DNA from: an uncultured Planctomycetota bacterium
GTDB taxonomy: Bacteria > Planctomycetota > Brocadiia > CAIUPP01
Assembly: GCA_903901045.1 (NCBI GenBank)
Contig: CAIUPP010000010.1
Span: 62,001 to 126,000, forward strand
DNA length: 64,000 nucleotides
Reading direction: 5' to 3'
A program made the position numbers and the translations under genes. This document shows positions 19,514 to 52,829 of the stretch, piece after piece (position 1 is the stretch's first letter; every line of letters begins with the position of its first letter). The notes under the pieces were generated by a model. The model was given only the letters and a program-made list of their open reading frames with translations. It searched no databases and was not told the origin of the DNA.

Positions 19514-20533
19514 ATGATGCCCGACTACGGCGATTGCGTAATCAACATCAACGGCAGGCGCGAGATCACCGTCAAGGGGGGCGCGTCGCTGCTTGCGACT
19601 CTGCTGGGGCAGAAGATATTCATCCCCTCCGCATGCGGCGGGCGCGGCGGGTGCGGGTACTGCAAGGTGAAGGTCAAAGAGGGCGGCGGCCCGATCCTCC
19701 CGATTGAGAAACCTCACCTGACCGCCGAGGAGCTTGAACAAGGGGTGCGACTCGCCTGCCAGGTGAAGGTCTGCAACAATCTCTCCGTCGAAGTGCCCGA
19801 GGAACTGCTCAACGTCCACGCGTACCGCGCGACGGTCGAGCGCATCACCGACCTGACATACGACACGAAGGAGTTGCGGCTGAAGTTGATTGAGCCGGAG
19901 AGCATTTCGTTCACCGTCGGGCAGTACATCCAGCTCAAAACCCCCAAATACGAGGGGAATGCAACCCCCGTCTTTCGCGCGTACTCCATTTCTTCTCCCC
20001 CTTCGGAAAGCGGGGTCGTGGAACTGATCGTCCGGCTGATTCCGAACGGCATATGCACCACGTGGATCTTCCAGCACCTGAGAGAAGGACAGGAGGTGCG
20101 TTTCAACGGCCCGTATGGAACCTTCGGGCTCAGGCAGACGGAGCGCAGGATTGTCTTCATTGCCGGGGGCAGCGGCTTTGCGCCGGTCAAGGCGATAATC
20201 CAGGACAACCCCGCGGAAATCAACCGGCGCACGGCGAAGTTCTTCTTCGGAGCCAAGTCGGTCAGGGACCTTTTCCACGTCAAGCTGATGCAGGACATCC
20301 ACGCGCAGTACCCGCGGATCGAGTTCATCCCGGCGCTCTCGCTGCCGAACCCCGGGGATGTGTGGGTCGGCGAAGAAGGGCTCATCACCGAGGTCGTCGA
20401 CCAGCGCCTGCCCGACGCTTGCGCCACAGAGTTCTACCTCTGCGGCGGTCCGGGGATGATCGACGCCTGCATCGCGGTGCTGCACAAGAAGGGCGTGACG
20501 GACGATTTCATCTTCTTTGACAAATTCGTGTGA
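19514..20533 (+). CDS. Soluble NqrF-like [2Fe-2S]/FAD NAD(P)H reductase
   Basis: The 339-residue protein has an N-terminal plant-type ferredoxin domain (ACGGRGGCGYC near 40 plus a later LACQV cysteine), an FAD domain with RAYSISSPP (FAD-binding RxYS) and an NAD domain with GGSGFAPVK. The ferredoxin and linker regions resemble NqrF of Na-pumping NADH:quinone reductase, but the membrane anchor is absent and no nqr genes are nearby. The FAD region also resembles the E3 reductases (AscD/RfbI) that serve CDP-3,6-dideoxysugar synthesis. It likely feeds electrons to a partner iron-sulfur enzyme. A small gene follows with a 14-base gap. Confidence 0.8.
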   Translation: MMPDYGDCVININGRREITVKGGASLLATLLGQKIFIPSACGGRGGCGYCKVKVKEGGGPILPIEKPHLTAEELEQGVRLACQVKVCNNLSVEVPEELLNVHAYRATVERITDLTYDTKELRLKLIEPESISFTVGQYIQLKTPKYEGNATPVFRAYSISSPPSESGVVELIVRLIPNGICTTWIFQHLREGQEVRFNGPYGTFGLRQTERRIVFIAGGSGFAPVKAIIQDNPAEINRRTAKFFFGAKSVRDLFHVKLMQDIHAQYPRIEFIPALSLPNPGDVWVGEEGLITEVVDQRLPDACATEFYLCGGPGMIDACIAVLHKKGVTDDFIFFDKFV

Positions 20534-26526: not shown

Positions 26527-28347
26527 CTAACGGCCCCCCGTGAAATCATCAGTCGTCCTATGGAAATCCTTCCGCTCAAAGACCAGCACTTGGCCCGCAT
26601 AATCGGTGGTTCCCCACGCGAAGTGTTTGAGGAGCACGAAGTTTTTGTCCACGTAATCGCGGAACGGCTCGCAATCGGGACGACTGCGCAGGTCGTAATA
26701 CTCTAGGAAGGTGACCAGGAATCGCACATTATAATCACGGTTCCAGAGTGCGATCGTGTCGCGCTGCATGATGGGGTCCGGGGAGTGTTCGCGAAGCGAA
26801 TCGCCGATCGCGCGCGGATTGCACTGGGTTCTCCCACGCCATCGGGCAGGCAGGTCGCGCCAGCCGCCGTAAAGCGTCATGATCGGATTGCCCACCACGG
26901 CCACATCTTCGCCGGGCTGGAGCCGCGAACGCACCCATTGCGCCATGTCCGTTTCCATTGAGGTCCGAATAAATGGTTCGGGATAGGTGGCGCGGCGCGT
27001 CCAGAAAGGAAGCAGCGCACCAAAGAGCCCCAGCGCCAGGACCAGCCCCCCCAGCGCACGAACGGGGCCGGGCAGCGCACGGCGCGTCATCAGCGCTAGG
27101 GCGATGGCGGCGGTTAGGCCTGCGCCCAGGACGGCCATCGTGCTGGCCAAGGCGCGCAACGACGTGGCGATCGGCGCGGCCTTCCATACCGCAAAGACGG
27201 CGGCGGCCAAGCGGTACTCTGCCAGCGCCAGAAGTGCCGCCACCAGTCCCAGCGCAATGAGGCAAGCCGCCGCCGCCCCGGCGCTCGGGACCAGGCGCGA
27301 CCTGAGGCGGTACAGAAGCGGCAGTCCGGCGCTCAGGAGCGCGGCCGCACCGAAGCCGGCCACGATCGCCACGGCGGGAGCCCACGGCAAGAGGTAGTGA
27401 TCGGCTGCCTGATAGTGCAGCACGAAGAGGAACATCGCCTGACCGGCGAGCCACATCAGCGGCGTCAGCATGCGACGGTCGCGCCGCCAGAGCGCCAGCA
27501 GCAGCCCGGCGGCGGCGAAGGTGGCGAGCCATTGGGTGGTCCACGCGGTGCGCAACAGATACACCCCCTTGATGACGGGGCCGCCTATGTGCGACACACC
27601 CTGCCCCGCCTGGCGCAATTCCAGGTTCAGGCCGAAGAGGTTTTGCCACATCTCCCGGACGCTGAACGGCTGAGGCGCGACAATCAGGAGGATGGCGGCC
27701 ACGCAGCCCAGGCAGAACAGGGCCACGCGCGGCAGGTTCGGCCGCCAGTTCAGCGTCCAACGCGCCTCGCGGTCCATGAACAGGAGCATCAGGCCGAGCA
27801 CGGGGAACATGGCCACCAGCGACTGCTTGCTCATCAGGCCTGCACCCAGGCAGGCCCCTGCCAGAAGGCACAGCGGCGCCCAACGCTGGCGCGCCGTCAT
27901 CCCCCACAGCAGCAGCGCCACGGACCAGGTGGCGAAGAACGCGTCCAGGGTGCTGGAATGCAGTTCGCGCGCGTACATTACGCTGAGCGGATCGAAGGCC
28001 AGCAGCGCGGCCCCTGCCAGGCCGGCAATCGCGCCGAAGAAACGGCGTCCGATCCAGTACACCGCCAGCACGCAAGAGGCCGAAAGGAGCGCCATCAGCA
28101 CTTTTGACGCCAGAACGAAGTGCGTCGGAAAGGCCTGAAACAGCCAGGAGGAGAGCATGAACTTGACCGGAGGTTTGTTGCTGTAGATATCTTCGTACAG
28201 CACCTTGCCTTCGGCCACCGCCACCCCCCGGAGCAGAATGCTGGCAGTGTCGACATCGGTGCCGAGGGACACCGTGGCCAGCCGGACAGCCAGGGCGCCG
28301 CAGAAGATCAGCAGAAGGAGCAGACGGATTCGCGACTCAGTAATCAT
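26527..28347 (-). CDS. GT39/ArnT-like membrane glycosyltransferase
   Basis: The 606-residue GT-C enzyme has about 11-12 membrane segments. The first loop carries DVDTASILLRG and EDIYSNKPPVKF, the PMT/ArnT-type catalytic region facing the periplasm, where it would move a sugar from a polyprenyl phosphate to an acceptor. A C-terminal soluble domain (about 470-606) follows. It is the last gene of the rfb-type operon, so it is the likely final transferase of that pathway. Confidence 0.8.
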   Translation of the reverse strand: MITESRIRLLLLLIFCGALAVRLATVSLGTDVDTASILLRGVAVAEGKVLYEDIYSNKPPVKFMLSSWLFQAFPTHFVLASKVLMALLSASCVLAVYWIGRRFFGAIAGLAGAALLAFDPLSVMYARELHSSTLDAFFATWSVALLLWGMTARQRWAPLCLLAGACLGAGLMSKQSLVAMFPVLGLMLLFMDREARWTLNWRPNLPRVALFCLGCVAAILLIVAPQPFSVREMWQNLFGLNLELRQAGQGVSHIGGPVIKGVYLLRTAWTTQWLATFAAAGLLLALWRRDRRMLTPLMWLAGQAMFLFVLHYQAADHYLLPWAPAVAIVAGFGAAALLSAGLPLLYRLRSRLVPSAGAAAACLIALGLVAALLALAEYRLAAAVFAVWKAAPIATSLRALASTMAVLGAGLTAAIALALMTRRALPGPVRALGGLVLALGLFGALLPFWTRRATYPEPFIRTSMETDMAQWVRSRLQPGEDVAVVGNPIMTLYGGWRDLPARWRGRTQCNPRAIGDSLREHSPDPIMQRDTIALWNRDYNVRFLVTFLEYYDLRSRPDCEPFRDYVDKNFVLLKHFAWGTTDYAGQVLVFERKDFHRTTDDFTGGR

Positions 28348-28425
28348 ACGCTAATGACTCCAACGCTCATGATTAGGCGGAAAGCAGCAAGTTCGGCGAA
28401 CACAAATGGGCCGAATTGTCTCATG

Positions 28426-29472
28426 TCACGCCGCCTTGGGTGACCGGTGCCAGCGGATGGTGCGGGCGATAGCTTCGTCCAACCCAATGCCTTGGCGCAA
28501 ACCTAGTTCCGTCCGGGCACGTCGCGTGGAAGGAACGTAACGAGGCGCAGGCACGCCAAGTTCGGGCGCGCGGGCGATGCGCACCTCGGCGGGTGGCACG
28601 ACGGCACGACTGATGGCCTGCGCCAGATCGGCAATACGGACCGCCTCCTCCGAACCGACATTGTATGGCCGGCAGAAAACACCACGATGCAGGATTGTCC
28701 AGAGCCAGATGGTCAGGTCCGAGGCATACAAATAGGAGCGCCAAGGGACGCCATCACCTTTAACCTGGATCGGTACGCCACGCAACACGTCGCGGATAAA
28801 GTTCCCCGCCGCGAATTGCGCGTCCAACGGGAGATATGGCCCGACGAACGTGAAGCACCGAGCGATTTTCACGTCGAGCCCCCCTTCACGAGCCGCCTGC
28901 GTGCAGAGGCTCTCAGCGGCGCGCTTGCCCTGAGCATACGCCGAACCGTGGTCGGTCAACGCCGGCGCGCAGGGATACTCCTCGGGCAGGTGCGTCAGAT
29001 CCGGCGACTGGAGGCCATAGACTGCGCCGGAGCTGGTCAGCAGCAACTTCCCGGCCCCGCAGCTTCGAGCGAACTCCAGTGTGCGCCGCGTCCCCTCAAC
29101 GAGTGTGTCGAACACGGGCGACAAAGGGGCACCCGCGCGCTCCGGGGACTCGGCGGCGGCGTGGATGATATGGGAGAAGCGCTCGTTCGGAAAGGCAAAG
29201 TCGCGCACGTTACCTGCGTGCAGGCGCACCGACGGGTGGCCGGCCAAATGCGGTGCCTTGCGCGAGAAGACGTCAGGGGCGCGCGTCAACACGGTCACCC
29301 GAACACCCAAACCCAGTTTCTCCTCGGCCCAGAGGAGGCTTTCCAGCAGCCAACAGCCAAAAAATCCCGTCCCCCCGGTAATGAAGAGTCGCGCCCCGCA
29401 CAATTCTTCCCACAGCGGCCGCGTCTGTCGCAGGATATCATCGAGATCGGAGGCCAGCGGGTTAGGGGTCAT
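28426..29472 (-). CDS. NAD-dependent sugar-nucleotide epimerase/reductase (SDR)
   Basis: This 348-residue extended SDR has the cofactor motif TGGTGFFG near residue 32, LTSSGAVYG with the catalytic Ser, and YAQGKRAAE with the Tyr-x3-Lys pair. It overlaps the rfbH stop by four bases (ATGA). Following rfbF, rfbG and rfbH, it is expected to act on the CDP-4-keto-3,6-dideoxyhexose or on its branched product. It is similar in layout to the SDR at 34301-35353, so two successive reductions or epimerisations are possible. Confidence 0.82.
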
Positions 29473-30782
29473 GGGCGGCAGAACCTCCGGATAGTCGCAA
29501 CCACGTATTCGATCATCTCCCGGGTCAGCCCAGGATAGACGCCGATCCAGAAGGTGCGATTCATAATAAGGTCAGCTGTCTGTAGCGGGCCGACACTGCG
29601 GATGTGGCATTTGTCGTAAGCCGGCTGGCGCGTTAGATTCCCGCCAAAGAGCAGCCGCGTGCCGATGCGCCGACTCTCCAAGTGCAGGATGAGCGCGCGA
29701 CGGTCGAACGGGGCTTGTTCGCGCACCGTCAGCGGGAAGCCGAACCAGCTCGGGCGCGATTCCGGTGCCGCTCCGGGTAAGACGAACAGGTCGCCCAGGC
29801 TCCCCAGCGCCTCGCGCAGGAATGTGAAATTGTTCAGCCGCGCCTCGATGAACCGTGGGAGCTTCTCCAACTGAGCCAGTCCGACAGCAGCCTGCATGTC
29901 GGTCATTTTGAGGTTGTAGCCGACATGCGAGTAAACGTACTTGTGGTCGTAGCCGAACGGCAGCCCGCCAAATTTCTGTCCAAATCGCCCGCCGCAGGTG
30001 TTATCGCGCCCGGGATCGCACCAGCAATCGCGCCCCCAGTCGCGGAAACTGACCACGAGCCGCCGCAACGCGTCGTCGTGGGTCAGGACCGCACCTCCCT
30101 CCCCGGTGGTAATGTGGTGAGCTGGGTAGAAGCTCAAGGTGGCCAAATCGCCGAAACTGCCCAGCGGCTTTCCACGTAGCGTGGAGCCGAGAGCGTCACA
30201 GCAGTCTTCGATCATCCAGAGTCGATGCCGCCGGCAGAAGTCACGCACCGCCTCGGCGTCGAAAGGATTGCCCAGGGTGTGGGCAAGGATAACCGCACGC
30301 GTGCGATCTGAAAGCGCGGCGTCGAGTTGCGTCAGGTCGGCGTTGTACGAAGGGAGCACGGCGTCGATGAATACCGGGATGAGACCGTTTTGGAGAACTG
30401 GGTTGACGGTCGTGGGGAATCCAGCCGCGCAGGTAATCACCTCGTCCCCGGGTTGTAGCCGCCGCTCCCCCAACGCCGGACTGGTCAGGCAGGCCAATGC
30501 TAAGAGGTTCGCGGAAGAGCCGGAGTTGACCAGGATGGCATAGCGCGCCCCGGCCGCGCGGGCCAGTGCCAACTCGAAGGCATCGGCAAAGCGCCCGGTC
30601 GTCAGCCAGAAATCGAGGGAGGAATCCACAAGGCGGCAGACCTCGTTGGCGTCGAAGACGCGTCCGGCCACAGGGATCGGGGTCTGCCCTGGAATGAATG
30701 GCTTTGAGGCGAACGCTTGGGAGACGTACTCCGTCACGAGGTCGAGAATGCGCCGGCGAAGGGCATCGGATGGGTCAATCAT
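29469..30782 (-). CDS. rfbH: CDP-6-deoxy-L-threo-D-glycero-4-hexulose-3-dehydrase (E1)
   Basis: This enzyme removes the C3 hydroxyl of CDP-4-keto-6-deoxyglucose using PMP and a [2Fe-2S] cluster. Two diagnostic features are visible. The usual PLP lysine of the aminotransferase fold is replaced by His in [14 protein letters not shown] (about 218-230). The cysteines C195, C253, C255 and C263 match the CX57CX1CX7C cluster pattern of RfbH/AscC/DdhC. The 437-residue length is normal. Its electron donor (E3, RfbI/AscD) is absent from the operon. It overlaps the rfbG stop by eight bases. Confidence 0.93.
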
Positions 30783-31773
30783 GCGCCAGGAACTCCCGGT
30801 ACCAGTGGATGGTCATGCGCATCCCGTCCTCCAAGCGACACAACGGCGACCATTCCAGTAGGTGCCGCGCCTTGGCGGCGCTGAGGTATTGGCGCGGGAT
30901 TTCGTTGGACGCCTCGTTGCGAATCTCCGGCTGGAGCGGCGAGTCCATCAGGCGCAGCACCAAGCGAACGATGTCGAGCACCGTCATCTCCTTCTCATAG
31001 GAGAAGTTGAATGCCTCTCCCCGCAGTTCGGGCTGCCGGGCTAGTTGTTCGGCCAGGAGCATGTAGGCAGCTGCGCCGTCCTCGACGTACAAGTAGTCAC
31101 GCACCAGCTTGCCATCAGAGCGAATCACCGGCGCGCGCCCGCGCAGGATGGAGCGGATCGTCCCTGGGACGATCCGCGACCAGTTCAGGTCTCCCCCCCC
31201 GAAGAAGTTGCCGCAGCGCGTCACGGCGATTGGCAGGCCGAAGCTGGCCGCGTAAGACTGGGCGATCAGATCGGCACAGGACTTGCTTACGTCATACGGA
31301 TAGCGCCCGCGCAACGGAGCGGCCTCGTCGTACGGAAGCGTCTCGTGGCTGCCATACGCCTTGTCGGAAGACGCCAGCACAACGTGCTTAACGCGCGGGC
31401 TGCGGCGGCACGCCTCCAGAATGGACCAAGTGCCACCAACGTTCGTTTCGAAGGTGCTGACCGGGTTGGCGTTGGCTACCCCCACGATCGTTTGTGCCGC
31501 CAGGTGGAAAACGGTGTCCGCCTCGTACTCGCCCAGCACGCGCTCCATCAGTGCCTGATCGCGCACGTCGCCGCGCACCACCTGGACGCGCTCGATCATC
31601 CCGGTACGTACCAAGTCGCTGTGCGGGGCCCAGTCGCGCACCAGGCAGACCACGGCGGCCCCTTCCGCCACTAGGCGCTTGACCAGCCACTGACCGAGCA
31701 GGCCGGTGGCCCCGGTCACCAGCGTGGGCCGGTCCTGCCAGAACGGCGATGGCCTTACTTCCAGACTTTCCAT
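30775..31773 (-). CDS. rfbG: CDP-glucose 4,6-dehydratase
   Basis: RfbG converts CDP-glucose to CDP-4-keto-6-deoxyglucose. The 332-residue SDR has [11 protein letters not shown] near the N-terminus, [15 protein letters not shown] and [11 protein letters not shown] with the Tyr-x3-Lys pair, and [16 protein letters not shown], which is typical of CDP-glucose dehydratases. It overlaps rfbF by 19 bases and rfbH by eight, in the usual rfbFGH order. Confidence 0.93.
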
Positions 31774-32531
31774 GGCGCCTTCCCCGTATCCCAGAGGTCA
31801 TTCAGATGCTTGTACTCGCGATAGGTGTCCATCGCATAGAAGAAGCCCTCGTGGCGATACGCCATCAGTTCTCCTTCGCGTGCGAGACGTTCCAGCGGGT
31901 CGCGCTCCAACGTACAGGGATCTTCGCGCAGGTAATCGAAGACGCCCCGGTTGAAGACAAAGAAGCCGGCGCTCATCCAGCCGTCCAGACGGGGTTTCTC
32001 AGAGAAGGTGGTGACGCGCTGCTCCCCCTGGACACTGATCATGCCGAAACGGGAGAGGGGCCGCACCGCCGTAACGGTCGCTAACTTGCCGTGCGATTTG
32101 TGAAAGGCGGCCAACGCACGGATATCCACATCAGCGACGCCATCGCCGTAGGTTACCATGAACGTCTCCTCATCCACGTACCGTTCCACACGGCGAACGC
32201 GGTCACCGGTGAGCGCGTCCGCACCAGTATCGGCCAAGGTGACGTGGAAATCCTGCTCGGTGTGGAAACCGTGGAGGCGGGTGTTGCACTTCGCACCGAG
32301 GCAGATGGTGAAATCGTTGTTCATTGCCTCGTAGTTAAGGAAGTACTCTTTGATGGCGCTGCCCCGGTATCCCAGGGCGCAGATGAACTCGCGAAAGCCG
32401 TGGTGGGCGTATAGCTTCATAATGTGCCAGAGGATCGGGCGCCCGCCTATGTCAACCATCGGCTTGGGCCGGAACTCAGTCTCTTCGCGCAAGCGCGTAC
32501 CCAAGCCGCCGCAAAGAATGATTACCTTCAT
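31755..32531 (-). CDS. rfbF: Glucose-1-phosphate cytidylyltransferase
   Basis: RfbF joins CTP and glucose-1-phosphate to CDP-glucose, the entry step to CDP-dideoxysugars. The start is ATG 32531 with GGAG five bases upstream. The 258-residue protein shows [14 protein letters not shown], the KPMVDIGG segment and [12 protein letters not shown] with the metal-binding Asp. It is followed by rfbG. Confidence 0.94.
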
Positions 32532-32593
32532 CGTAACTCCGCTGAAGAGCGCGCGAAAGGGAACGCTACAACTGATCAATTCAACACTCCATA

Positions 32594-32622
32594 AGGGTAC
32601 CCATATGCCTGTGATAGGTCAA
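32594..32622 (-). promoter_or_regulatory. Candidate internal promoter before rfbF
   Basis: TTGACC and TACCCT on the minus strand are 17 bases apart, about 60 bases before the rfbF start. The -10 is poor. The gap 32532-32904 shows no gene, which fits a separate transcription start for rfbFGH. Confidence 0.35.
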
Positions 32623-32904
32623 GGTGTCGCGCGGGTCGGTAGTTTAGGAGGACACGCCCGCGCAGCATGCAGGGAAAAGGGGCTTGGAGCATTATGTGCC
32701 GCGGGAGGGCCGTTGAGTCAATCGGTAGGGGCTGGCGGCGAAGCACAAGGAATTTCTTGAAGACGTGCATGGAGGGCGTTGAAGGTTGCCAAGGCGCACT
32801 TGGAGGCTGGGCTGCAGCAGCGGCGCGTCGCGCTCGTGGCGGCTGGCCGGCACAGGCGCGTTGGGGGGCGGTTGGACTATCACAATGGCTACGAGCCGAC
32901 TCGG

Positions 32905-33315
32905 TCATGCGCCACCGCAGAAAACGTAACGCCGGTTCAGCAGAAACGTCATCGTGGCAATCGGCAGCAGCAAGATCGCCTGAGCCGCGATAGAATAGAC
33001 GTTGCAAGACAGCAGCAGTTTCAGCCCCCCCAGGTTCAGCAGATAGATGAATGCGTACACGCCGGCGAAACGAGGGATCCGGCGGCTGCCGTGATTGCCG
33101 AAGACAAACGCGCCGTAAGTCTTGAAGTTGAATAACATACCGCAGACTTGGCCCAGCAGCGCCGCCCATGCGTAATGGAGCCCCAGCATGATGAAGAAGC
33201 TGAAGACACCGTACCCGAAGAGCGTATTGATCCCACCCACGACAAGAAAGCGCGCAAAACGGTTCCGGCGCATCGCGCCCAGGCGGTTCATTAGCATAGG
33301 CAGAGGCTTCGTCAT
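32905..33315 (-). CDS. GtrA-like flippase family protein
   Basis: This 136-residue protein has four membrane segments and the GtrA start FLVVGGINTLFGYGVF. GtrA proteins are thought to move polyprenyl-phosphate sugars across the inner membrane. It overlaps the GT2 stop by four bases, reproducing the usual gtrA-gtrB pairing. Confidence 0.85.
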   Translation of the reverse strand: MTKPLPMLMNRLGAMRRNRFARFLVVGGINTLFGYGVFSFFIMLGLHYAWAALLGQVCGMLFNFKTYGAFVFGNHGSRRIPRFAGVYAFIYLLNLGGLKLLLSCNVYSIAAQAILLLPIATMTFLLNRRYVFCGGA

Positions 33316-34271
33316 TCCGTCCCTTCGTCCTCGTCGAAGTTAATGCGCTCTTTCTCGATCACCAGCGGGCGATTGAGCACCTGCGTGTGAATGGCCCCCA
33401 CATACTCCCCCAGAATGCCGATGAAACATAATTGCACCGATCCGATGAAGAAGATACCCACGACCAGCGGAGCAACCCCCAGGACGAACTGGTTCCAGAA
33501 GAGCAGTTTGGCCACCATGTAACTCAGACCGATCACAAAAGAGATACCGGCCAAGAGGAATCCGACCATGGCGGCCAGGCGCAGAGGTATCTTGGAGTGG
33601 CTGGTGATACCCAGCATGGCCATGTCGTAGAGGGTGTAGAAGTTGTTCTTCGTGATGCCCCGCTCGCGCCGAGGCTGAGTGTACTCGATCTTGGCGGGGT
33701 CGAAGCCGACCTCGCTGATGAGGCCGCGGAAGTAGGGATAGGGATCGGGGATGCGCCGCAATGTCTCCAACACTTGCCGGTCGTACAGGCCGAAGCCGTA
33801 GAAATTCGGCGTCAGTTCCACCTCGGCCATGCGGCGTACGAGGCGGTAGTAGAAGCCTCGCGCGGCAAACATCAACGGCGACTCCTTGCTGCGCGTCTTC
33901 ACCCCCATGACGATCTTGTGCCCCTGCTCCCAGCGATTGAGAAACTCGGCGATCAGCGAGGGCGGGTCCTGAAGGTCAGCGACGAAGAGGATCGCCGCGT
34001 CGCCGCGCGCCTGGAGGAGGCCGTAGAACGGGCTGCGGATGTGGCCGAAATTACGGCTGTTCAGGATCACTTTGACGTTGTGATCCTCGCTGGCCAGGCG
34101 GCGCAAAATCTCCTGCGTGCCGTCGGTAGAGGCATTGTCAATGAAGAGGTGCTCGTAGCGGAAGCGCCCGAGCGCAGCGAAGACCTCCTTCACGCGACGG
34201 CACACTTCCTCGACGTTCAATTCCTCGTTATAGCAAGGGGTGACAATGCTGATGAGACGTGTCGATTCCAT
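33312..34271 (-). CDS. GtrB/DPM1-like polyprenyl-phosphate glycosyltransferase (GT2)
   Basis: The 319-residue enzyme has a cytoplasmic GT-A domain with IVTPCYNEELNVEE, DNASTDGT and the DLQDPP metal-binding motif, then two C-terminal membrane segments (about 235-300). It would load a sugar onto undecaprenyl phosphate for flipping by the adjacent GtrA and use by a GT39 enzyme. It lies 29 bases after the SDR stop. Confidence 0.88.
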   Translation of the reverse strand: MESTRLISIVTPCYNEELNVEEVCRRVKEVFAALGRFRYEHLFIDNASTDGTQEILRRLASEDHNVKVILNSRNFGHIRSPFYGLLQARGDAAILFVADLQDPPSLIAEFLNRWEQGHKIVMGVKTRSKESPLMFAARGFYYRLVRRMAEVELTPNFYGFGLYDRQVLETLRRIPDPYPYFRGLISEVGFDPAKIEYTQPRRERGITKNNFYTLYDMAMLGITSHSKIPLRLAAMVGFLLAGISFVIGLSYMVAKLLFWNQFVLGVAPLVVGIFFIGSVQLCFIGILGEYVGAIHTQVLNRPLVIEKERINFDEDEGTE

Positions 34272-34300
34272 GATTACGGCATCCTCCGCGACAACGCGTG

Positions 34301-35353
34301 CTAGGTAGTCTGGTTCCAGGATATCGTACGCTTTATAGCCATGTCCAAATCCGTGCTCAACCCCAAGCTCAATGCGCTGGCACAGAGAGACACGTCGGGA
34401 ACGCGCTTAGATGCCGGCGGCCTGCGCTCGCCGAGAACTCCAAATTCAATCCTCGGCCGACCCGGCACGCAGTCGGCAATTCGGGCGGCGAACTCGGCCA
34501 AGGTGACGCCCCGCGCACTGCCGACATTATACGCCTGTCCGGACCTGCCTTTGACCAGTATGTTCAGGAGCCAGTATGCCATGTCCGAGGGGTACATGTG
34601 GCTGCGGATAGTCTGGCCATCGCCGTGAACTCGAATGGGCCCACCGAGCATTGCGTCGCGGATGAAATCCGTGCCCGCCCACGGCAGGCCCAGCGGCTGA
34701 TACGGTCCGATGAAGGCGAACGGTCGGACGGTGGAGATGATCAGTCGGTGCTCGCTTTGATAAGCCGCACACAGCGTCTCAGCGAACCGCTTGGCTTCGG
34801 GATAGCCAGAACTGACGTTGGCGCAGTCGAGAGAACCACAGAAGGATTCGGAGATAGCGGGCATGTCCCATGGCTGTGTTCCGTAGATCAGCCCCGAACT
34901 GATGTTCAGGAACTTCCGCAGCTGGCTTAGTTGCACGGCGGCAACCAGCATGGCACGAGTGCCGTTCACGATGACGTCAACCGCTCCCACGGGGTCGGAG
35001 GCATGAACTCGCCGGTCTGGGGTCGCGGCTGCGTGGATGATCCACTGCGTCTCCGGTGGCAGGTCCAGAACGGACCGAACGTCCTTCAAGACTACTGTGA
35101 CGTCCTTGCGTGCCGCCAAATGCTCGGCCGTCTCCACAAATCGTCCACACTGCCGCGCCATGAGCGTCACATGCACATTGAAGCCATGCTCGTCATTCAA
35201 GCACGCGATCATCTCGGTCAGCCATGTGCCGACAAAACCGGTGCCGCCTGTGACAAACAGGGCGCTATTACGTAACGGGGCGAGCATCTCCGTTCCACCC
35301 GCCAGTGCCCGGCGACAATCTTCCCGAACGATATCGCGCCGCTTCGACGTCAT
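34301..35353 (-). CDS. NAD-dependent sugar-nucleotide epimerase/reductase (SDR)
   Basis: The 350-residue extended SDR shows VTGGTGFVG near residue 34, a Ser in LNISSGLIYG and a YPEAKRFAE active site. It shares length and layout with the SDR at 28426-29472, and both end in an IRW- or ISW-type tail, so they may be paralogues. It overlaps the aldolase stop by four bases, linking it to the ThDP/aldehyde module. Reduction of a keto group on a branched nucleotide sugar is a reasonable guess. Confidence 0.8.
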   Translation of the reverse strand: MTSKRRDIVREDCRRALAGGTEMLAPLRNSALFVTGGTGFVGTWLTEMIACLNDEHGFNVHVTLMARQCGRFVETAEHLAARKDVTVVLKDVRSVLDLPPETQWIIHAAATPDRRVHASDPVGAVDVIVNGTRAMLVAAVQLSQLRKFLNISSGLIYGTQPWDMPAISESFCGSLDCANVSSGYPEAKRFAETLCAAYQSEHRLIISTVRPFAFIGPYQPLGLPWAGTDFIRDAMLGGPIRVHGDGQTIRSHMYPSDMAYWLLNILVKGRSGQAYNVGSARGVTLAEFAARIADCVPGRPRIEFGVLGERRPPASKRVPDVSLCASALSLGLSTDLDMAIKRTISWNQTT

Positions 35354-36366
35354 TTTTCTTCCCCCTTACGGGCGGCCAATTCTATTGCGACCTCAATGGC
35401 AACGTCTTCCTGTCCGGCAACAACCTTGCGGTTGCCCAGTTCGCGGAAGACTTCGCGAGCATCGACGCCGTACTCCGCGGCCACACGCTCGACATGTTTG
35501 GCGAAGCCGGAGAAGACGCCCGCCAAGCCGCTGGCGATGCTCAAGGAAGAGATCGTCGGGATCTTTGGCATGAGATGGCGTTCCGCCAGATCGGCAGCAT
35601 CCAATATCTTGTACAAATCAACGTCCGTGGAATAGCCCATGCGGTGGAGCACGGCGATCATCACCTCCAGTGGCGTGTTGCCCGCTCCGGCGCCAAGGCC
35701 TCGCGCCGAGCCGTCCAACAACGTCGCGCCCGCCTCAGCGGCCGCCGCTGAGTTGGCCACGGCCATGCCCAAGTTATTATGGCCATGGAACCCGACCGGG
35801 ATGCTCAGGTTCCGAGCGAGAAACCCGATCCGTTCCGACACATCCGCCGGCAAGTACGCACCCGCCGAGTCCATCAGAACCACGGCTTCTGCACCGTACG
35901 ACTCCATCTTCCTGCATTCATTCAGCAGCACCTCCTTGGCGGCCATGTGGCTCATCATCAGCACGCCGTACGCCACCCGCCCCTTCTCTCTCGCATACCC
36001 AATATGCCGTTGCGTAGTGTCGGCCTCCGTGCAATGTGACGCGACGCGGACAACATCGACGCCAGCTTCAATGGCCGGCTTGAGGTTCTTATTAATGGTG
36101 CCGAAACCGGGGATAATGTGCACGCCCAGTTTAGCGTGCTTGAGGACCGCGCGCACAGCCCCGAGCATCGCCAGATCCTCAATGGCGCTTTCACCGACCT
36201 GAAGCGAGGATGCGCCAAGTCCGTTCCCGTGGCCAACCTCGACAATCGCCACGCCTGCCGCGTCGCTCGCCGCGGCATACATGACCATTTGGCGCACGTT
36301 CAGTTGATGGCCCAGTGCATGATTGCCGTCCCGCAGCGTGGGGTCGCTAACGATGATTTTCTTCAT
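35350..36366 (-). CDS. 4-hydroxy-2-oxovalerate aldolase family (MhpE/DmpG-like)
   Basis: The 338-residue TIM-barrel aldolase has DPTLRDGNHALGHQ with the catalytic Arg12 and His20, and the metal-binding HGHNN. The C-terminal domain that contacts the dehydrogenase is retained. In meta-cleavage pathways this enzyme splits 4-hydroxy-2-oxovalerate to pyruvate and acetaldehyde and channels the aldehyde to MhpF/DmpF. Here no ring-cleavage gene is present. It sits between the matching dehydrogenase and a sugar SDR in a glycan operon, so synthesis in reverse, joining pyruvate to an aldehyde, is plausible. Confidence 0.85.
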   Translation of the reverse strand: MKKIIVSDPTLRDGNHALGHQLNVRQMVMYAAASDAAGVAIVEVGHGNGLGASSLQVGESAIEDLAMLGAVRAVLKHAKLGVHIIPGFGTINKNLKPAIEAGVDVVRVASHCTEADTTQRHIGYAREKGRVAYGVLMMSHMAAKEVLLNECRKMESYGAEAVVLMDSAGAYLPADVSERIGFLARNLSIPVGFHGHNNLGMAVANSAAAAEAGATLLDGSARGLGAGAGNTPLEVMIAVLHRMGYSTDVDLYKILDAADLAERHLMPKIPTISSLSIASGLAGVFSGFAKHVERVAAEYGVDAREVFRELGNRKVVAGQEDVAIEVAIELAARKGEEK

Positions 36367-37265
36367 AGGCCCGGTCCGTTCTTCGTCTGGGGAGTGACAT
36401 GGAAATGCTTGCGCGCAATCGCTTCGGCCATGGCAACTGCGGCACAGTCAATGATGTCCAAGTTGCCGGCATACGTGGGAAGGTGGTCTCCACTGCCTTG
36501 GACGCGAACCATAATAACGATGCGGCCGTTCTCGTAGATAGGCGGCACGATGACTTGGTAGCCAGGGACGTAGTCCTGCACCTTCTTTTCCATCACGGCC
36601 ACGGCCGCCCGACAACGCTCCAAGTTCGGCTGGGCAACTTTCGCAAAGAGCGTCGTCTGCATATTGATGCAGGGGTCCGCTGGATTCAGTATCAAAATGG
36701 CCTTGGATCGTCTGCACCCAGAGAGCGCCACAAGGGCCTTTTCCGTAGTTTCCACGTACTCGTCAAGATTGATGCGGGTAGCCGGGCCGGCACTTCGCGC
36801 CGCGATACTGGAAACGATCTCGACGTAGGAAACGTCGCGATGGGACTGCCGGATCGCGCAAGCGAGCGGAATTGCGGCCTGTCCACCGCAGGTCACCATG
36901 TTGATATTGCGCTTCTCCAGACAAGAATCACGGTTCACAGCGGGCACGCACATAGCCCCTAGCCTAGCAGGGGTCATGTCCACCACGATCTTCCCCAGCC
37001 GGTCCAGGATAGGCCAGTGGGTCTGATGGTCTAGCGCCGACGTAGCGTCAAAGACCAAGTCGCAAATGTGCGGCTTTTCGACGATCGCTTCTATTCCGCG
37101 CCAGGAGATGGGAACGCCAAGGCTGCCGGCCTTCGCAAGGCCGGACGATTGGAGGTTCCGCCCGACGAACAAGACGCAGCGGAGCAGGGATGAACGCATT
37201 GTCTTGATCAGCAGGTCTGTACCAATGTTGCCGCTGCCCAAAATCGCCACATTCAGTCTTGGCAT
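36363..37265 (-). CDS. Acetaldehyde dehydrogenase, acylating (MhpF/DmpF-like)
   Basis: The 300-residue enzyme shows the Rossmann motif ILGSGNIGTDLL and the catalytic cysteine in VTCGGQA (Cys126). It interconverts an acyl-CoA and its aldehyde with NAD. It overlaps the partner aldolase by four bases and follows the ThDP gene by five. The pair is the usual channelling complex, but the context is sugar biosynthesis rather than aromatic degradation. Confidence 0.85.
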   Translation of the reverse strand: MPRLNVAILGSGNIGTDLLIKTMRSSLLRCVLFVGRNLQSSGLAKAGSLGVPISWRGIEAIVEKPHICDLVFDATSALDHQTHWPILDRLGKIVVDMTPARLGAMCVPAVNRDSCLEKRNINMVTCGGQAAIPLACAIRQSHRDVSYVEIVSSIAARSAGPATRINLDEYVETTEKALVALSGCRRSKAILILNPADPCINMQTTLFAKVAQPNLERCRAAVAVMEKKVQDYVPGYQVIVPPIYENGRIVIMVRVQGSGDHLPTYAGNLDIIDCAAVAMAEAIARKHFHVTPQTKNGPGL

Positions 37266-37270
37266 CGGAT

Positions 37271-39067
37271 TTATCCCAAAGTATCGCGCACGCAGTTTCG
37301 TTGGTACTCGTCGCGAGGGAGGAATGGAAACATGTCGTCATAGGGCATGGACACCATGCGCCCGTCCTCAAGTTTTCTGGAGGCGACGCGCGGGATCAGG
37401 CGTTGGCTGGATGGCGTCATCACTTCGCAGATAGCGGCGGCTGGATACCGCAGAAACTCTCCAAGTTTGGACTCAAGCTCGGACAAAGCGACGATGCGGA
37501 GGAAGTGGATACCGTAGGCGAACGCGATCTTCTCGAGATCGGGACAACTTAGGCCGGTGGCCTTGTCCACACCGATAAACCGCCCCTCCTGAAAATTCTG
37601 CTGCGTCAGACGGATGAGGAGATAGCCATTGTTGTTGAGGACCACAAGCTTCGCCCGCATGCGGTTCTGCACGATCGTCTGCAACTCCTGCAGGTTCATC
37701 TGCAGCGACCCGTCGCCCGTGATGCAATAGGCGTTCTTGTCCGGTACGGCCGCCGCGACACCGACCACCCCAGGCATATAGCCCATGGTCGAGAGTCCCC
37801 CGGTAATGATGTGGCGCTGGCCGAATTTTACGTTGAATGCTTGCGCATGGACGTGAAAGCAGGAACCCGTGTCAACCACGACCACGGCGTCCGGTGGCAA
37901 GGCGTCGGAAAAAAGACGCATAAAATGATAAGAATTCACGCCTTCCGTCTCATCGCAATATTCCGGCAGGTCTACAGGATACGCTTGTCGCCAGTGCTGC
38001 GTCTGCTCCACCCAACGCGGATTGGCTGGTCGACACCCCCCAAGGACCGACAGGCACTTCTCTAGAAAGTCCCGGGCATCGGCACGCACCGCAATATCCG
38101 GCACGACGGACGGCTTTGCAAGTTCCTGTTCATCAATGTCCACCATGATCTTCTTTGCATGCCGCGCAAAGTCCTGGAAATCGTAGCCTACCAGTCCGAT
38201 ACCCATGCGGCATCCAATGGTCAGCAAGAGATCTGCATTCTGTACCGCGAAATTCGCGGCGCGTTCGCCATAGGTTCCGGGCCTCCCCGCAAACAGAGGA
38301 TGGTCGTGGCCCATCAGGTCCATCCCCAGACGGGACGTCAGCACGGGAATCCCCGTGGCATCCACGAACCGATGAAGGGTGTCAACAGCCCCGGCAAGTC
38401 GGACGCCCGCGCCAGCCAAGATGCAGGGCCGGCGACTTGTCCGGATAGCCTCAACCACTTGCTGTACCTGTGCATCCAGGTTCGGCGTGCCTCCGGGTGC
38501 GACCGGCTCCGGAATATAGCCCGGGAAGTCCTCGGGACAGAACGTCGCACCTTGGATATCAATAGGGCATTCCAGCCACACCGGCCCCACACGCGGCCTC
38601 TTTGCGATGTGAATGCACTTCTCGACCTCGTACCGAACCCGCGAGATATCTTGCAGCATGACCGCGTATTTCGTAACCTGTTGAAATAGCGGCAGGGTGT
38701 TGAATCCTTGGAGAGAGAACTGCCGGGGCCCACGTACCGTCGCCTGGGAGACTTTCGACTGACCGGCCACGATGACGCATGGGGAAGAATCCACATAAGC
38801 ACCTACAACGCCCGTCAGGGTGTTGAGCGCGCCCGGTCCTGCTGTAACATAGGCGACCCCCAGTCGGCCCGTGAGACGTCCGTATGCCTCAGCCGCCATG
38901 GTCGCCGCCTGCTCGTGATGACAGCAAACGTAGCGCTGACGCCCATGCCGCAAGAGCGCGTCCGTCAAGTGCATGATCATGCCGCCGGTGACCAGGAACA
39001 CCGACTCACCACCTGCGTCGTAGAGCTTAGCCGTGATATAATCGGCTACACGCATTCTTGCCGCCAT
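37271..39067 (-). CDS. ThDP-dependent acetolactate-synthase-like enzyme in glycan operon
   Basis: The 598-residue protein has all three domains of the acetohydroxyacid synthase family: the N-terminal PYR domain with catalytic Glu in CHHEQAATMAAEAYGR (Glu52), the middle domain, and the PP domain with the ThDP motif GDGSLQMNLQ...NNN. The start is ATG 39067, eight bases after GAGG. No regulatory subunit or other ilv gene is near. In Yersinia a related ThDP enzyme (YerE) transfers a two-carbon unit from pyruvate to CDP-4-keto-3,6-dideoxyglucose, the very product of the rfbFGH genes in this operon. A similar branch-forming role is inferred. It heads the operon. Confidence 0.82.
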   Translation of the reverse strand: MAARMRVADYITAKLYDAGGESVFLVTGGMIMHLTDALLRHGRQRYVCCHHEQAATMAAEAYGRLTGRLGVAYVTAGPGALNTLTGVVGAYVDSSPCVIVAGQSKVSQATVRGPRQFSLQGFNTLPLFQQVTKYAVMLQDISRVRYEVEKCIHIAKRPRVGPVWLECPIDIQGATFCPEDFPGYIPEPVAPGGTPNLDAQVQQVVEAIRTSRRPCILAGAGVRLAGAVDTLHRFVDATGIPVLTSRLGMDLMGHDHPLFAGRPGTYGERAANFAVQNADLLLTIGCRMGIGLVGYDFQDFARHAKKIMVDIDEQELAKPSVVPDIAVRADARDFLEKCLSVLGGCRPANPRWVEQTQHWRQAYPVDLPEYCDETEGVNSYHFMRLFSDALPPDAVVVVDTGSCFHVHAQAFNVKFGQRHIITGGLSTMGYMPGVVGVAAAVPDKNAYCITGDGSLQMNLQELQTIVQNRMRAKLVVLNNNGYLLIRLTQQNFQEGRFIGVDKATGLSCPDLEKIAFAYGIHFLRIVALSELESKLGEFLRYPAAAICEVMTPSSQRLIPRVASRKLEDGRMVSMPYDDMFPFLPRDEYQRNCVRDTLG

Positions 39068-44175: not shown

Positions 44176-45690
44176 TCATTCGACGCGGCGTTGAGGTATC
44201 TCGCGAACGAGCTTGCGCGCCGTCATTTCGCGGATGTGAGCGACCGTCTGGGGGCCGAACTTGCGTTCAATCATCGCCAGGTATGGCGGGTTGACGAAAT
44301 ATCTCTGGAACGCCTCGTCGCGGAAGCGCAGCACTTCCTCTCCGCTGATGTGGCGCGTCGGCAACGGGAGCGAGTCAGCTGAGTACTGCGAGAAACCGCT
44401 CCAGGATTTCGGCAGCGGCCTGCCTTCCTTGACGGCCGTTTCGTACAGCTCGGAGCCGGGATAGGCCATGGCGCAGTTGAAATTGACGAACTCGCAGTTG
44501 AGGTCCATCGCCAGGTCGAGCGTCTCCTGCATCGTCGCCAGATCATCTTCGGGCAATCCGAACATGAAATTGGCTATGACGTTGATGCCAGCCTCCCGGG
44601 TCATCTGGATCACGCGGCACAGGTCGCTCTGATCATACCCCTTCCGCGCATCTTTCAGCACCCGCTCACTGGCGGCCTCAATGCCGAAGGCGAGCCAATG
44701 GACGCCAGCCTTCTTGAGAAGGTCCAGCATCTCCGGCCGCAGCGTGTCCACGCGTGCGTACGCCCAGATGTTGAGATCATAGCCGCGTTCGATAATCCCG
44801 CGGCAGACCCCCTCGACATGCGCGCGGTTGAGGACGAAGATTTCGTCGGCGAACTTGATGTTGCGCACGCCCCAGCCGGTCACGAGGCGGTCGATCTGCG
44901 CCAGGACCGATGGCGGGCTCCAGAGGCGGTAACTATGGACGCCCCGCTTGAACCCAAGCGCGCACTCACCGCTGCGGAAGGGAGCCTGGATGCAGCAGAA
45001 GGTGCAGTGGAACGGACAGCCCAGCGAGGTGTAGAGGGCCGCATAGGGCTGGCGTTTCAGATCGCCGAAGCAGTGCCAGTTGTGCGCGCGATACTTCTCC
45101 ATCGGCAGCAGGTCCCACGGCACGCCAGGCATCTGCTGGTCCAAGTCCATCACCAGGGGGGCCGGCGGCGTGGAGCGCACGGTGTCTTCCTCCCTGTAAT
45201 AAAGATCATGGACATTTTGGAGATCATGGGCTCCGCTCCGGAGCGCCTGGAGGAGTTCCACAATCGTGGCGGGGCCCTCCCCACCGCAAACGAAATCCGC
45301 CGCTTCCTCCTGGAGCGTCCGCTCCGGCAACGCGGCCACGTGCCCGCCGACCAGCAGCACTTTGACCTCCGGCGTCGTTTCCTTGAGTGCGCGGCAGATA
45401 GCCCCGGCCGCCGGCATCACCTGCGTCGAGGCCGATGGGTTGTGGCCATAGACGACGACCACCACCAGACGGGGCGTGAGATGGCGCACCGCCTCGGCCA
45501 CCCTCTCGGGGCCCAGCCCTTCCGCGTTGGCGTCCAGGATTGACGCGGAGAGACCGCGGCGGCGCGCGAACGCGGCCATGAGGCCGGCCCAGATCGGCGG
45601 CTCCACGGCCGTCAGCCCATCCGACAAGCTTTGGTAAATGCGCCGCTGGCTCCCGGGGTTGACCAGAAGCAAGTCCAGAGCCGGACTCAC
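44176..45690 (-). CDS. B12-binding-domain radical SAM enzyme
   Basis: The 504-residue protein combines an N-terminal cobalamin-binding-like domain (about 1-155, with LLVGGHVAALPE) and a radical SAM barrel with CPFHCTFC (Cys225, 229, 232). The usual DxHxxG cobalamin His motif is not evident, so B12 may bind base-on or not at all. Relatives methylate or couple unactivated carbons in lipids and natural products. Start GTG 45690 overlaps the SDR stop by four bases (GTGA). A role in modifying the glycan or its lipid carrier is likely. Confidence 0.83.
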   Translation of the reverse strand: MSPALDLLLVNPGSQRRIYQSLSDGLTAVEPPIWAGLMAAFARRRGLSASILDANAEGLGPERVAEAVRHLTPRLVVVVVYGHNPSASTQVMPAAGAICRALKETTPEVKVLLVGGHVAALPERTLQEEAADFVCGGEGPATIVELLQALRSGAHDLQNVHDLYYREEDTVRSTPPAPLVMDLDQQMPGVPWDLLPMEKYRAHNWHCFGDLKRQPYAALYTSLGCPFHCTFCCIQAPFRSGECALGFKRGVHSYRLWSPPSVLAQIDRLVTGWGVRNIKFADEIFVLNRAHVEGVCRGIIERGYDLNIWAYARVDTLRPEMLDLLKKAGVHWLAFGIEAASERVLKDARKGYDQSDLCRVIQMTREAGINVIANFMFGLPEDDLATMQETLDLAMDLNCEFVNFNCAMAYPGSELYETAVKEGRPLPKSWSGFSQYSADSLPLPTRHISGEEVLRFRDEAFQRYFVNPPYLAMIERKFGPQTVAHIREMTARKLVREIPQRRVE

Positions 45691-46661
45691 AGCGCCCCCC
45701 CCCGCACGCCAGCCTCCGCGCCTTCAAACTTCCGGCGGTCTTTGAGGCGGGCATAGTTGTGCGAATACCACGCCACCGTGCGCCGGATTCCTTTCGAAAT
45801 ATCAGTTCCAATACGGTACTGATACTTGTTGTTCAACTTCTCTACATTCATCATCTTGCCCTTGATGCCGACGTAGCCGCCGGGGTTGAAACGCAAGCGC
45901 CCCTCAAAACCCGCCGCGCGGCAGATCGTCTCCGCCAACTCCCGGATCGTGGTGCCCATGCCAGGCCCGACGTTGACGACGTCCCGGTCCGCACGCTCCA
46001 GCAGGTGCAGCAGGGCCTTGACGAACTCTTCCACATCCATGAATTCGCGCACCTGTGTCCCATCGCCCCAGATCTCGACCTCCGGCAATTTCTCCTGCAC
46101 AGCCCGGACGAATTTCCCTATAAGCGCGCCGGCGACATGGGCCGTCTCCGGATGGAAATCGTCGTATTCTCCGAACATCGTGGCGGGAATGATGTAGCTG
46201 CCATTCAACTTGTACTGGTCATTGTAGGCGCGGACGCCGGTGTAGAGCAGCCGTTTCGTGAAGGCATAGGAATACACGCTGCCATGAATGTCGCCATCCA
46301 GGAACACCTCCTCCGTCAACGAGGCAGCTGCGCTCGGATAGGCGCAACTGGTCCCCACAGCGAGAAACCTGGCCTGCGGCGCAAAACGCCGCCACGCCTC
46401 CAGCGTATGACTATGGATAAGATTATTGACATGGAATTGTTCCGCCGGATGCTTCGCAGGAAAGTCCGCCGCCGCCTGATAGCTTGCCAGGTGAATGACC
46501 GCGCCGACATCGCGATGGCGGGCGAACACGGCCTCCGCCCCCTCCTGGCGCGTCAGGTCGTAGTCCCGCTTGGAAAAGAGGACGTATTCCGTTCCCCGCC
46601 GCCGCAATTCCTCTTGAAGGTGCCGACCGACAAAACCTGTTCCGCCAGTAATTAGAATCAT
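45687..46661 (-). CDS. GDP-L-fucose-synthase-like SDR
   Basis: The 324-residue SDR shows TGGTGFVGRHL at the N-terminus, VGTSCAYP with the catalytic Ser and YSYAFTKRLLY with Tyr-x3-Lys. The pattern is closest to Fcl/GDP-4-keto-6-deoxymannose epimerase-reductases. Here it likely reduces or epimerises a 4-keto nucleotide sugar made in the same operon. A run of nine G lies at its 3-prime end (plus strand 45694-45702). Confidence 0.82.
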   Translation of the reverse strand: MILITGGTGFVGRHLQEELRRRGTEYVLFSKRDYDLTRQEGAEAVFARHRDVGAVIHLASYQAAADFPAKHPAEQFHVNNLIHSHTLEAWRRFAPQARFLAVGTSCAYPSAAASLTEEVFLDGDIHGSVYSYAFTKRLLYTGVRAYNDQYKLNGSYIIPATMFGEYDDFHPETAHVAGALIGKFVRAVQEKLPEVEIWGDGTQVREFMDVEEFVKALLHLLERADRDVVNVGPGMGTTIRELAETICRAAGFEGRLRFNPGGYVGIKGKMMNVEKLNNKYQYRIGTDISKGIRRTVAWYSHNYARLKDRRKFEGAEAGVRGGAL

Positions 46662-46682
46662 AGAGACACCTCAGTTAATGGA

Positions 46683-47684
46683 CTATTTGAGTATCTCACG
46701 TATGCGCGTCGCAATCCGGGCGGACGACGGGTAAAATGCCTTCTCAAGAACCCCGCTGGCGGGCATCGAACATTCCGGGAATGTGAGCCGCTGTACCGGC
46801 CCGCGCAAATACTGGAACCCCTTTTCCGCCACCAGAGCGCACACCTCGGAGGCAAAGCCGCATCGCGGAAAGTCATAGTCGACCACCAGCAAACGCCCGG
46901 TCTTCGCCACCGACTGAAGAATGAGCTCTTCGTCCAGGGGCTTGAGCGTCCGGGGGTCCAGTACCTCTACGTCCAAGTCGTTGTCCTTGCAGGCCGCGAG
47001 CGTATCGATGACGGCGATGGAGGTTGCCACGACCGTCAGTCGATTGCCCTGCCGCACGATATGCCCCTTCCCGATCGGCAGGCAGTACATCTCCTTCGGC
47101 ACGTGACCTGTGTTTTTGTAGAGCCACCGATGCTCGATGAAGATCACCGGATAGTCATCTTTGACGGCCGCAAGGAAAAGGCCCTTGACGTCGTAGGGGG
47201 ACGAGGGCATCATGACTTTCAGGCCGGGAATGTGGGTGAAGAGCGACTGCAGGGTACCGGAATGTTGGGCTCCGGACCCCCACCCGCGGCCGATGACAGC
47301 GCGAATGACCAACGGAACTTTGACCTGCCCCTGAAACATGTACCGCCATTTGGCGACGTAGTTCACGATCTGATCCATCGCCACCATCATGAAGTCCACG
47401 CGGAGATGAATCATGATCGGGCGCAACCCCGAGAGTGCCGCCCCCAAAGCCACGCCTGTCATAGCGTTTTCGGAAATCGGCGTGCCGATGACTCGTTCCT
47501 TGTGTGTCAAGTTCAGCATGGTGCCAAAAACGCCAAACTTATCGTTCGCATCCAACCCGATGGCAAAGACGCGCGGGTCATATTCCATCGCCTGATCAAT
47601 GGCCTCGCCGATCGCCTCTTTATACGTGATGATCCGATCGCCATCGTGCGCTGCATGGCTTTGGGTGATACGACTCCAAGGCAT
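46683..47684 (-). CDS. Pyruvate-dehydrogenase-like E1 beta subunit
   Basis: The 333-residue protein has the transketolase pyrimidine domain (ISENAMTGVALGAALSGLRP, with the ThDP-activating Glu) and the C-terminal transketolase domain. It starts one base after the E1 alpha stop, with GGGAGG as ribosome binding site. No E2 or E3 gene is nearby, so the pair is unlikely to be a normal dehydrogenase complex. In aldgamycin and octose-containing antibiotic pathways, paired E1-like proteins attach a two-carbon unit to a keto sugar; a like role fits this glycan operon. Confidence 0.85.
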   Translation of the reverse strand: MPWSRITQSHAAHDGDRIITYKEAIGEAIDQAMEYDPRVFAIGLDANDKFGVFGTMLNLTHKERVIGTPISENAMTGVALGAALSGLRPIMIHLRVDFMMVAMDQIVNYVAKWRYMFQGQVKVPLVIRAVIGRGWGSGAQHSGTLQSLFTHIPGLKVMMPSSPYDVKGLFLAAVKDDYPVIFIEHRWLYKNTGHVPKEMYCLPIGKGHIVRQGNRLTVVATSIAVIDTLAACKDNDLDVEVLDPRTLKPLDEELILQSVAKTGRLLVVDYDFPRCGFASEVCALVAEKGFQYLRGPVQRLTFPECSMPASGVLEKAFYPSSARIATRIREILK

Positions 47685-47685
47685 C

Positions 47686-48645: not shown

Positions 48646-48742
48646 GGAAGGCCTCCGGAGAACGATACCGTCTATGAACGTAGCGGAACACGCGTGGCGC
48701 TCTCAGCCGTTGAAGCCGCATCGTTGTTGCCGGCCGGAACAC

Positions 48743-49774: not shown

Positions 49775-49789
49775 ACGGCGTCTCCCCAG

Positions 49790-50506: not shown

Positions 50507-50514
50507 GTTTCTGC

Positions 50515-52523: not shown

Positions 52524-52829
52524 CTCATCCACCTTCCTTTAGTTAGTTCCGCATCGGCTTATTCACCGGCAAGGCCCGTAGTCCCGAAGACTCCTCAAGA
52601 ATGGTCGGAAGCCGGATAGGATACTGCTTTTTGCCACAGGGCGAGCGTGTCCCTGATGAGCCGGGGCCGGTACGATAGGCATCGAGCGCGTCCCCGCCGT
52701 GCGGGGGTGGCCGGCCTGGCGGCTCTTGGAGCCACGTTCGCTTCTTATAATCCCGGCATCACCGGATGTCAAGCGTGCGGCTCGACAGGTGCAAACGTTG
52801 CGATCGGCTCCTCCGCATCCCGCGGATGA

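Follow-up and report, generated by a model that had tools for sequence, protein, structure and literature searches.

The thiamine diphosphate (ThDP)-dependent enzyme ErwE of Pectobacterium atrosepticum couples hydroxy keto acids of the 4-hydroxy-2-oxopentanoate type, not pyruvate, to CDP-4-keto-3,6-dideoxyglucose (CDP, cytidine diphosphate) to form erwiniose, and MMAR_2332 of the caryophyllose pathway has a similar donor preference (PMC12247030). Erwiniose has ten carbons (PMC8657720); the hexose accounts for six of them and a 4-hydroxy-2-oxopentanoate-type donor for the other four. The side chain of caryophyllose is 1,3,4,5-tetrahydroxyhexyl (PMC5706390), and its 1,3-diol pattern is what 4-hydroxy-2-oxo acid donors should give. 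YerE, the yersiniose A enzyme of Yersinia pseudotuberculosis, uses pyruvate or 2-oxobutyrate as its donor. We analysed a stretch of 64,000 nucleotides from an uncultured Planctomycetota bacterium (contig CAIUPP010000010.1, positions 62,001 to 126,000; hereafter the window), in which an operon encodes a YerE-like ThDP enzyme next to the aldehyde dehydrogenase MhpF and the aldolase MhpE. Our analysis suggests, with a probability of about 0.78, that the operon makes an erwiniose-type branched sugar, for which MhpF and MhpE would supply the donor and the ThDP enzyme would carry out the branching.

In the proposed pathway RfbF, RfbG and RfbH would lead to CDP-4-keto-3,6-dideoxyhexose. MhpF would convert acetyl-CoA to acetaldehyde and hand it to its partner MhpE, which would join it with pyruvate to give 4-hydroxy-2-oxopentanoate, opposite to the degradative direction. 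The ThDP enzyme would decarboxylate this acid and join the acyl anion so formed, four carbons long, to the ketone at C4 of the keto-sugar, and the first short-chain dehydrogenase/reductase of the operon (SDR1) would reduce the branch ketone, yielding CDP-3,6-dideoxy-4-C-(1,3-dihydroxybutyl)hexose, a ten-carbon sugar. Plausibly, a family 2 glycosyltransferase (GT2) would then load the sugar on undecaprenyl phosphate, GtrA would flip it, and a GT39-type enzyme would attach it to a surface glycan. The original prediction had proposed an anabolic MhpF/MhpE pair feeding a 4-hydroxy-2-oxo acid to a C4-branching YerE-like enzyme, and the gene cassette described below, a separate acetohydroxyacid synthase (AHAS) and the lack of an MhpD match all support it. 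Since MhpF and MhpE would yield a donor of the ErwE type, the pathway is well supported in outline and of an already known kind; the chemistry had been put forward as new, but ErwE was already reported to couple 4-hydroxy-2-oxo acids to the keto-sugar (PMC12247030).

The genes of the operon are as follows, with families assigned by Pfam and NCBIfam profiles and the curated NCBIfam cut-offs.

37271..39067, minus strand: predicted YerE/ErwE/JanthE-like ThDP-dependent carboligase, 598 amino acids, with thiamine pyrophosphate enzyme (TPP) N, M and C domains
36363..37265, minus strand: MhpF-like acylating acetaldehyde dehydrogenase (predicted acetyl-CoA to acetaldehyde), TIGR03215 at 374 bits, cut-off 282
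35350..36366, minus strand: MhpE-like 4-hydroxy-2-oxopentanoate aldolase with DmpG communication domain, TIGR03217 at 384 bits, cut-off 286; PF07836
34301..35353, minus strand: SDR1, proposed branch-ketone reductase, Epimerase family, role from position only
33312..34271, minus strand: GT2 of the PgfS/ArnC type, proposed to transfer the sugar to undecaprenyl phosphate, PF00535; NF047588 below cut-off
32905..33315, minus strand: GtrA-type flippase candidate, PF04138
about 31755..32531, minus strand: RfbF, glucose-1-phosphate cytidylyltransferase, TIGR02623 at 335 bits, cut-off 300
30775..31773, minus strand: RfbG, CDP-glucose 4,6-dehydratase-like, TIGR02622 the best model at 214 bits, cut-off 278
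29469..30782, minus strand: RfbH (E1), CDP-4-keto-6-deoxyglucose 3-dehydratase, NF011936 at 701 bits, cut-off 423
28426..29472, minus strand: SDR2, a second short-chain dehydrogenase/reductase by family profile, with no role in the proposed scheme, placed by position only
26527..28347, minus strand: PMT_2 (GT39-type) membrane glycosyltransferase, possibly transferring the sugar to its acceptor in the periplasm, PF13231

All 11 genes named in the original prediction were found in the open reading frame check, running from 39067 to 26527 on the minus strand, and both the gene set and the tight spacing it described are borne out by the coordinates and the families. Most junctions are overlaps of 4-19 bp or gaps of no more than 30 bp; larger gaps separate GtrA from RfbF (~370 bp) and precede the GT39 gene (78 bp). 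MhpF, MhpE, RfbF and RfbH pass their curated cut-offs. The cysteines of RfbH that had been called intact (CX57CX1CX7C) are indeed so, as C195-X57-C253-X-C255-X7-C263 at the Fe-S site, and a His replaces the lysine that would bind pyridoxal phosphate. The genes for CDP-4-keto-3,6-dideoxyhexose are all present: RfbF, RfbG (by its best model) and RfbH with its Fe-S site.

By its sequence the ThDP enzyme is a YerE-like decarboxylase rather than an AHAS. The best AHAS model reaches 348 bits where the cut-off is 538, and the host genome has a separate AHAS gene adjoining a LeuA-like gene; an identity as acetolactate synthase was rejected on these two grounds. Among solved structures in the PDB the nearest is 8rph (412 bits), followed by 5ahk (239 bits) and E. 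coli AHAS I (233 bits). We take 8rph to be JanthE and 5ahk to be PpYerE with the help of a review (PMC12247030), as the PDB titles are generic. The enzyme retains the Glu of the HHEQ motif and a GDG motif, which is CDG in JanthE. It is 36% identical to JanthE and falls on a separate branch, yet the two have in common Q-G at residues 120-121, and JanthE is promiscuous and takes long donors. Relatives of the window enzyme that are not linked to MhpE and MhpF have Q-E at this site in 50 of 50 cases. Most members of the window clade are also one residue short in the stretch STMGY-MP (residues 423-432), close to the cofactor, and many positions set the clade apart from PpYerE. With YerE the window enzyme would share the nucleotide-sugar acceptor and the reaction type, although it is only ~29% identical to 5ahk. 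Searches of plasmid and viral collections gave either no relatives of this enzyme or just ordinary acetolactate synthases.

Among 84,980 species genomes scanned, 72 loci encoded a relative of the ThDP enzyme. MhpF, MhpE and SDR1 adjoin this relative in all 21 loci where it is at least 58% identical and in just one of the 51 loci below that value, a locus from Sphingomonadaceae (L053); the grouping is not a chance one, with a Fisher p of 3e-17 when relatedness among the loci is ignored. The four genes stand as ThDP-MhpF-MhpE-SDR1 or in permuted order, SDR1 adjoins MhpE in all 22 cassette loci, and RfbF, RfbG and RfbH are found in nearly all of those of sufficient length. The carriers include archaea (Methanoregulaceae and Methanoperedens) and bacteria from the cyanobacteria, Nitrospirota, Geobacteraceae, Elusimicrobia, Actinobacteria, Verrucomicrobia, Bacillota and Campylobacterota. 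Geomonas limicola Red745 and Sulfurospirillum cavolei UCH003 are cultured examples. The conserved core is therefore the four-gene cassette plus RfbFGH, and the eight-gene set that was to be looked for in other genomes recurs only in these parts, since GT2, GtrA, GT39 and SDR2 are not conserved with it. GT2 is sporadic among the 72 loci, the GT39-type protein has no match in their neighbourhoods, and SDR2 accompanies YerE-like enzymes both with and without MhpE and MhpF. Comparison of the loci led us to reject these four as conserved parts of the system.

The preference of the ThDP enzyme for 4-hydroxy-2-oxo acids over pyruvate is inferred from this linkage, and a transfer of two carbons from pyruvate, as in yersiniose, has to be weighed against it. 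In that case the role of MhpF and MhpE would be confined to the cleavage or balancing of nearby aldehydes and acetyl-CoA. YpYerE does favour pyruvate and has an identical RfbFGH route to its acceptor (PMC12247030), and many of the ThDP relatives in the 72 loci stand beside RfbFGH without MhpE and MhpF. We nevertheless consider this explanation improbable, as MhpE and MhpF occur with 21 of 21 close relatives and are all but missing from the other ThDP branches, and as the clade has Q-G rather than the Q-E of PpYerE at residues 120-121, as does JanthE, which accepts longer donors (PMC12247030).

The original prediction had MhpF reduce an acyl-CoA and proposed a branch as in caryophyllose-like sugars; with a longer acyl-CoA this branch would have six or more carbons. 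A longer donor fits with the ErwE-like preference of MMAR_2332 in the caryophyllose pathway, and the cassette MhpF has I195L and other fixed differences from the degradative enzymes. However, MhpF and MhpE exceed the equivalog cut-offs for acetaldehyde and 4-hydroxy-2-oxovalerate, no additional gene forming an acyl-CoA or aldehyde is conserved with the cassette, and the position of L89 in the aldolase BphI, where a smaller residue admits long aldehydes (PMC3962088), is Ile, Met or Leu in all 25 cassette aldolases. Because this residue remains large, acetaldehyde should be favoured. Together with the enzyme families this leads us to expect a four-carbon, erwiniose-like branch; the prediction of more than two carbons would thus hold, while a caryophyllose-like branch of six carbons is unlikely. 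That mhp-type degradation genes, or an acetolactate synthase, lie here by chance in a polysaccharide operon, as generic family annotation by itself would point to, is very improbable indeed, given the unmatched MhpD and the separate AHAS of this genome, the split of the cassette MhpE and MhpF from all 29 comparators, their different active-site residues, and an adjacency kept across many phyla, methanogens included.

These 29 comparators of degradative type comprise E. coli MhpE, four enzymes encoded by a single Sphingobium genome, and 24 found among 369 genomes sampled from one class. Leaving E. coli aside, the 4-kb locus also encodes an MhpD-like hydratase for 21 of 28, and a ThDP match occurs in none of the loci. 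The host genome holds a single MhpE copy and gave no match to MhpD, in a search whose empty answer counts as weak, so that the MhpD-type hydratase of aromatic meta-cleavage was not found with this MhpE/MhpF pair. The pair belongs to the same families as DmpG-DmpF, BphI-BphJ and MhpE-MhpF, with 1nvm as the top PDB match, the DmpG communication domain and the metal and catalytic residues. MhpE retains R12, D13, H16, H194 and H196, i.e. the catalytic R, D, H and H-x-H, besides passing the TIGR03217 cut-off, and MhpF retains the catalytic Cys126. Unlike these systems, the cassette lacks degradative neighbours, and its pair would run in the synthetic direction.

The cassette aldolases also differ from the degradative ones in the residues that control stereochemistry. 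BphI forms exclusively the (4S) acid and needs Tyr290 for it; Y290F abolishes the control, and the double mutants L87N/Y290F and L87W/Y290F take only the (4R) acid (PMC3962088). We mapped the BphI numbering through E. coli MhpE (R14, D15, H18, L85, Y288). The position of Tyr290 is Phe in 25 of 25 cassette aldolases (Phe285 in the window) and Tyr in 29 of 29 comparators, so the Tyr of (4S)-specific aldolases is absent from the cassette. At Leu87 the cassette enzymes have His (20), Phe (3) or Leu (2), His83 in the window, against Leu or Ile in the comparators; 23 of 25 thus carry L87H or L87F. The sugar-linked MhpE looks like a natural version of the engineered stereo-switch of BphI, which is a prediction since His and Phe are not among the residues described at BphI 87. 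It is a tentative proposal, to which we give somewhat less than even odds, that this MhpE is a stereo-inverted aldolase whose (4R) product would set the configuration of the branch, and that with MhpF it would form a mobile donor module that has been combined with two or more separate lineages of sugar-branching ThDP enzymes in bacteria and archaea.

The trees bear on the second half of this proposal. In the initial tree of ThDP enzymes those linked to MhpE and MhpF lay on one side of a single branch, with a support of 97 in the Shimodaira-Hasegawa-like approximate likelihood ratio test (SH-aLRT). In a second tree, to which two loci (L130 and L131) were added and in which one row was set right, the clade of the window enzyme (n=20) retains support 100, and L053 leaves the main clade, so that the linkage requires three changes instead of one; we therefore do not claim a single origin on this tree. 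The linked enzymes are still clustered, with none of 500 shuffles giving an equally low value. The ThDP enzymes of L130 and L131 group with JanthE (support 100), hence these trees show MhpE and MhpF paired with no fewer than two lineages of ThDP enzymes. The two loci, from Gammaproteobacteria with small genomes, have the genes RfbF-RfbG-DegT-GtrA-GT2-MhpF-MhpE beside the JanthE-like enzyme (L130:7532-16912 and L131:7630-17123). In their DegT protein the Fe-S cysteines are missing and His takes the position of the aminotransferase Lys, as in dehydratases of the ColD type, so the acceptor is likely still a 3,6-dideoxy-4-keto sugar. This pairing suggests that JanthE-type enzymes may use 4-hydroxy-2-oxo acids in nature. 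L053 (6220-11761) has MhpF-MhpE-SDR and a ThDP enzyme 41% identical to that of the window on a long branch, and may be a third independent pairing. Compared with the degradative-type relatives, the cassette MhpF enzymes form one group with support 100 and the cassette MhpE enzymes one with support 77.

As to the known sugars, the window enzyme agrees with ErwE in being a YerE-like ThDP enzyme with, as predicted, a CDP-4-keto-3,6-dideoxyglucose acceptor, 4-hydroxy-2-oxo donors and a ten-carbon product (PMC12247030, PMC8657720), and differs in that its type of cassette is spread over archaea, cyanobacteria and many other phyla. MMAR_2332 resembles it in the ErwE-type donor preference and the 1,3-diol pattern, compared by description, and differs in the side chain of six carbons.

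Several points weigh against the erwiniose-type assignment. The likeness to ErwE is taken from the published description, and our literature search gave no assayed member of the exact clade of the window enzyme. RfbG is below its NCBIfam cut-off (214 vs 278 bits), with the same family still the top match, and the scheme uses only one of the two SDRs in the operon. We identified no dedicated E3 reductase for RfbH. A 2Fe-2S/FAD (flavin adenine dinucleotide) reductase resembling NqrF/BenC is encoded elsewhere in the window, at 19514-20533 on the plus strand. Every reaction proposed for this bacterium is read from the genes, as are the length of the branch and its stereochemistry. In the literature searched, outside which key primary papers lay, no text ties MhpE and MhpF to these sugars.

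A close relative of the ThDP enzyme was found in the window genome alone among 75 genomes of its own class, and the cassette MhpE in that genome alone among 199 genomes sampled from the phylum, which suggests that the cassette was acquired horizontally.

Directly upstream is a second sugar module (44176-52532, minus strand) with a ThDP alpha/beta pair resembling pyruvate dehydrogenase (PDH) E1 at 48645-46683, below curated cut-offs. It also contains an HddA-like kinase, a GDP-fucose-synthase-like SDR, a B12 radical S-adenosylmethionine protein and a stretch judged to be nucleotidyltransferase-like from reading the sequence. As PDH-E1-type alpha/beta pairs attach two-carbon branches to antibiotic sugars (PMC12247030), one locus may hold ThDP enzymes of both the kinds known to branch sugars.

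The type of sugar, erwiniose, was already known; what is added here is the conserved four-gene core and the Phe/His signature of its aldolase. MhpF and MhpE look like a distinct and widely shared subfamily of supply enzymes, and offer a concrete source for the hydroxy-keto acid required by longer-branched sugars. An enzyme pair known from the degradation of pollutants would thereby be tied to the synthesis of cell-surface sugars, and the cassette is seen far from the organisms of the known sugars, e.g. in methanogens and cyanobacteria. The MhpE signature may help to predict undescribed surface sugars from genomes, and a natural counterpart of the engineered aldolase stereo-switch could be of use in biocatalysis.

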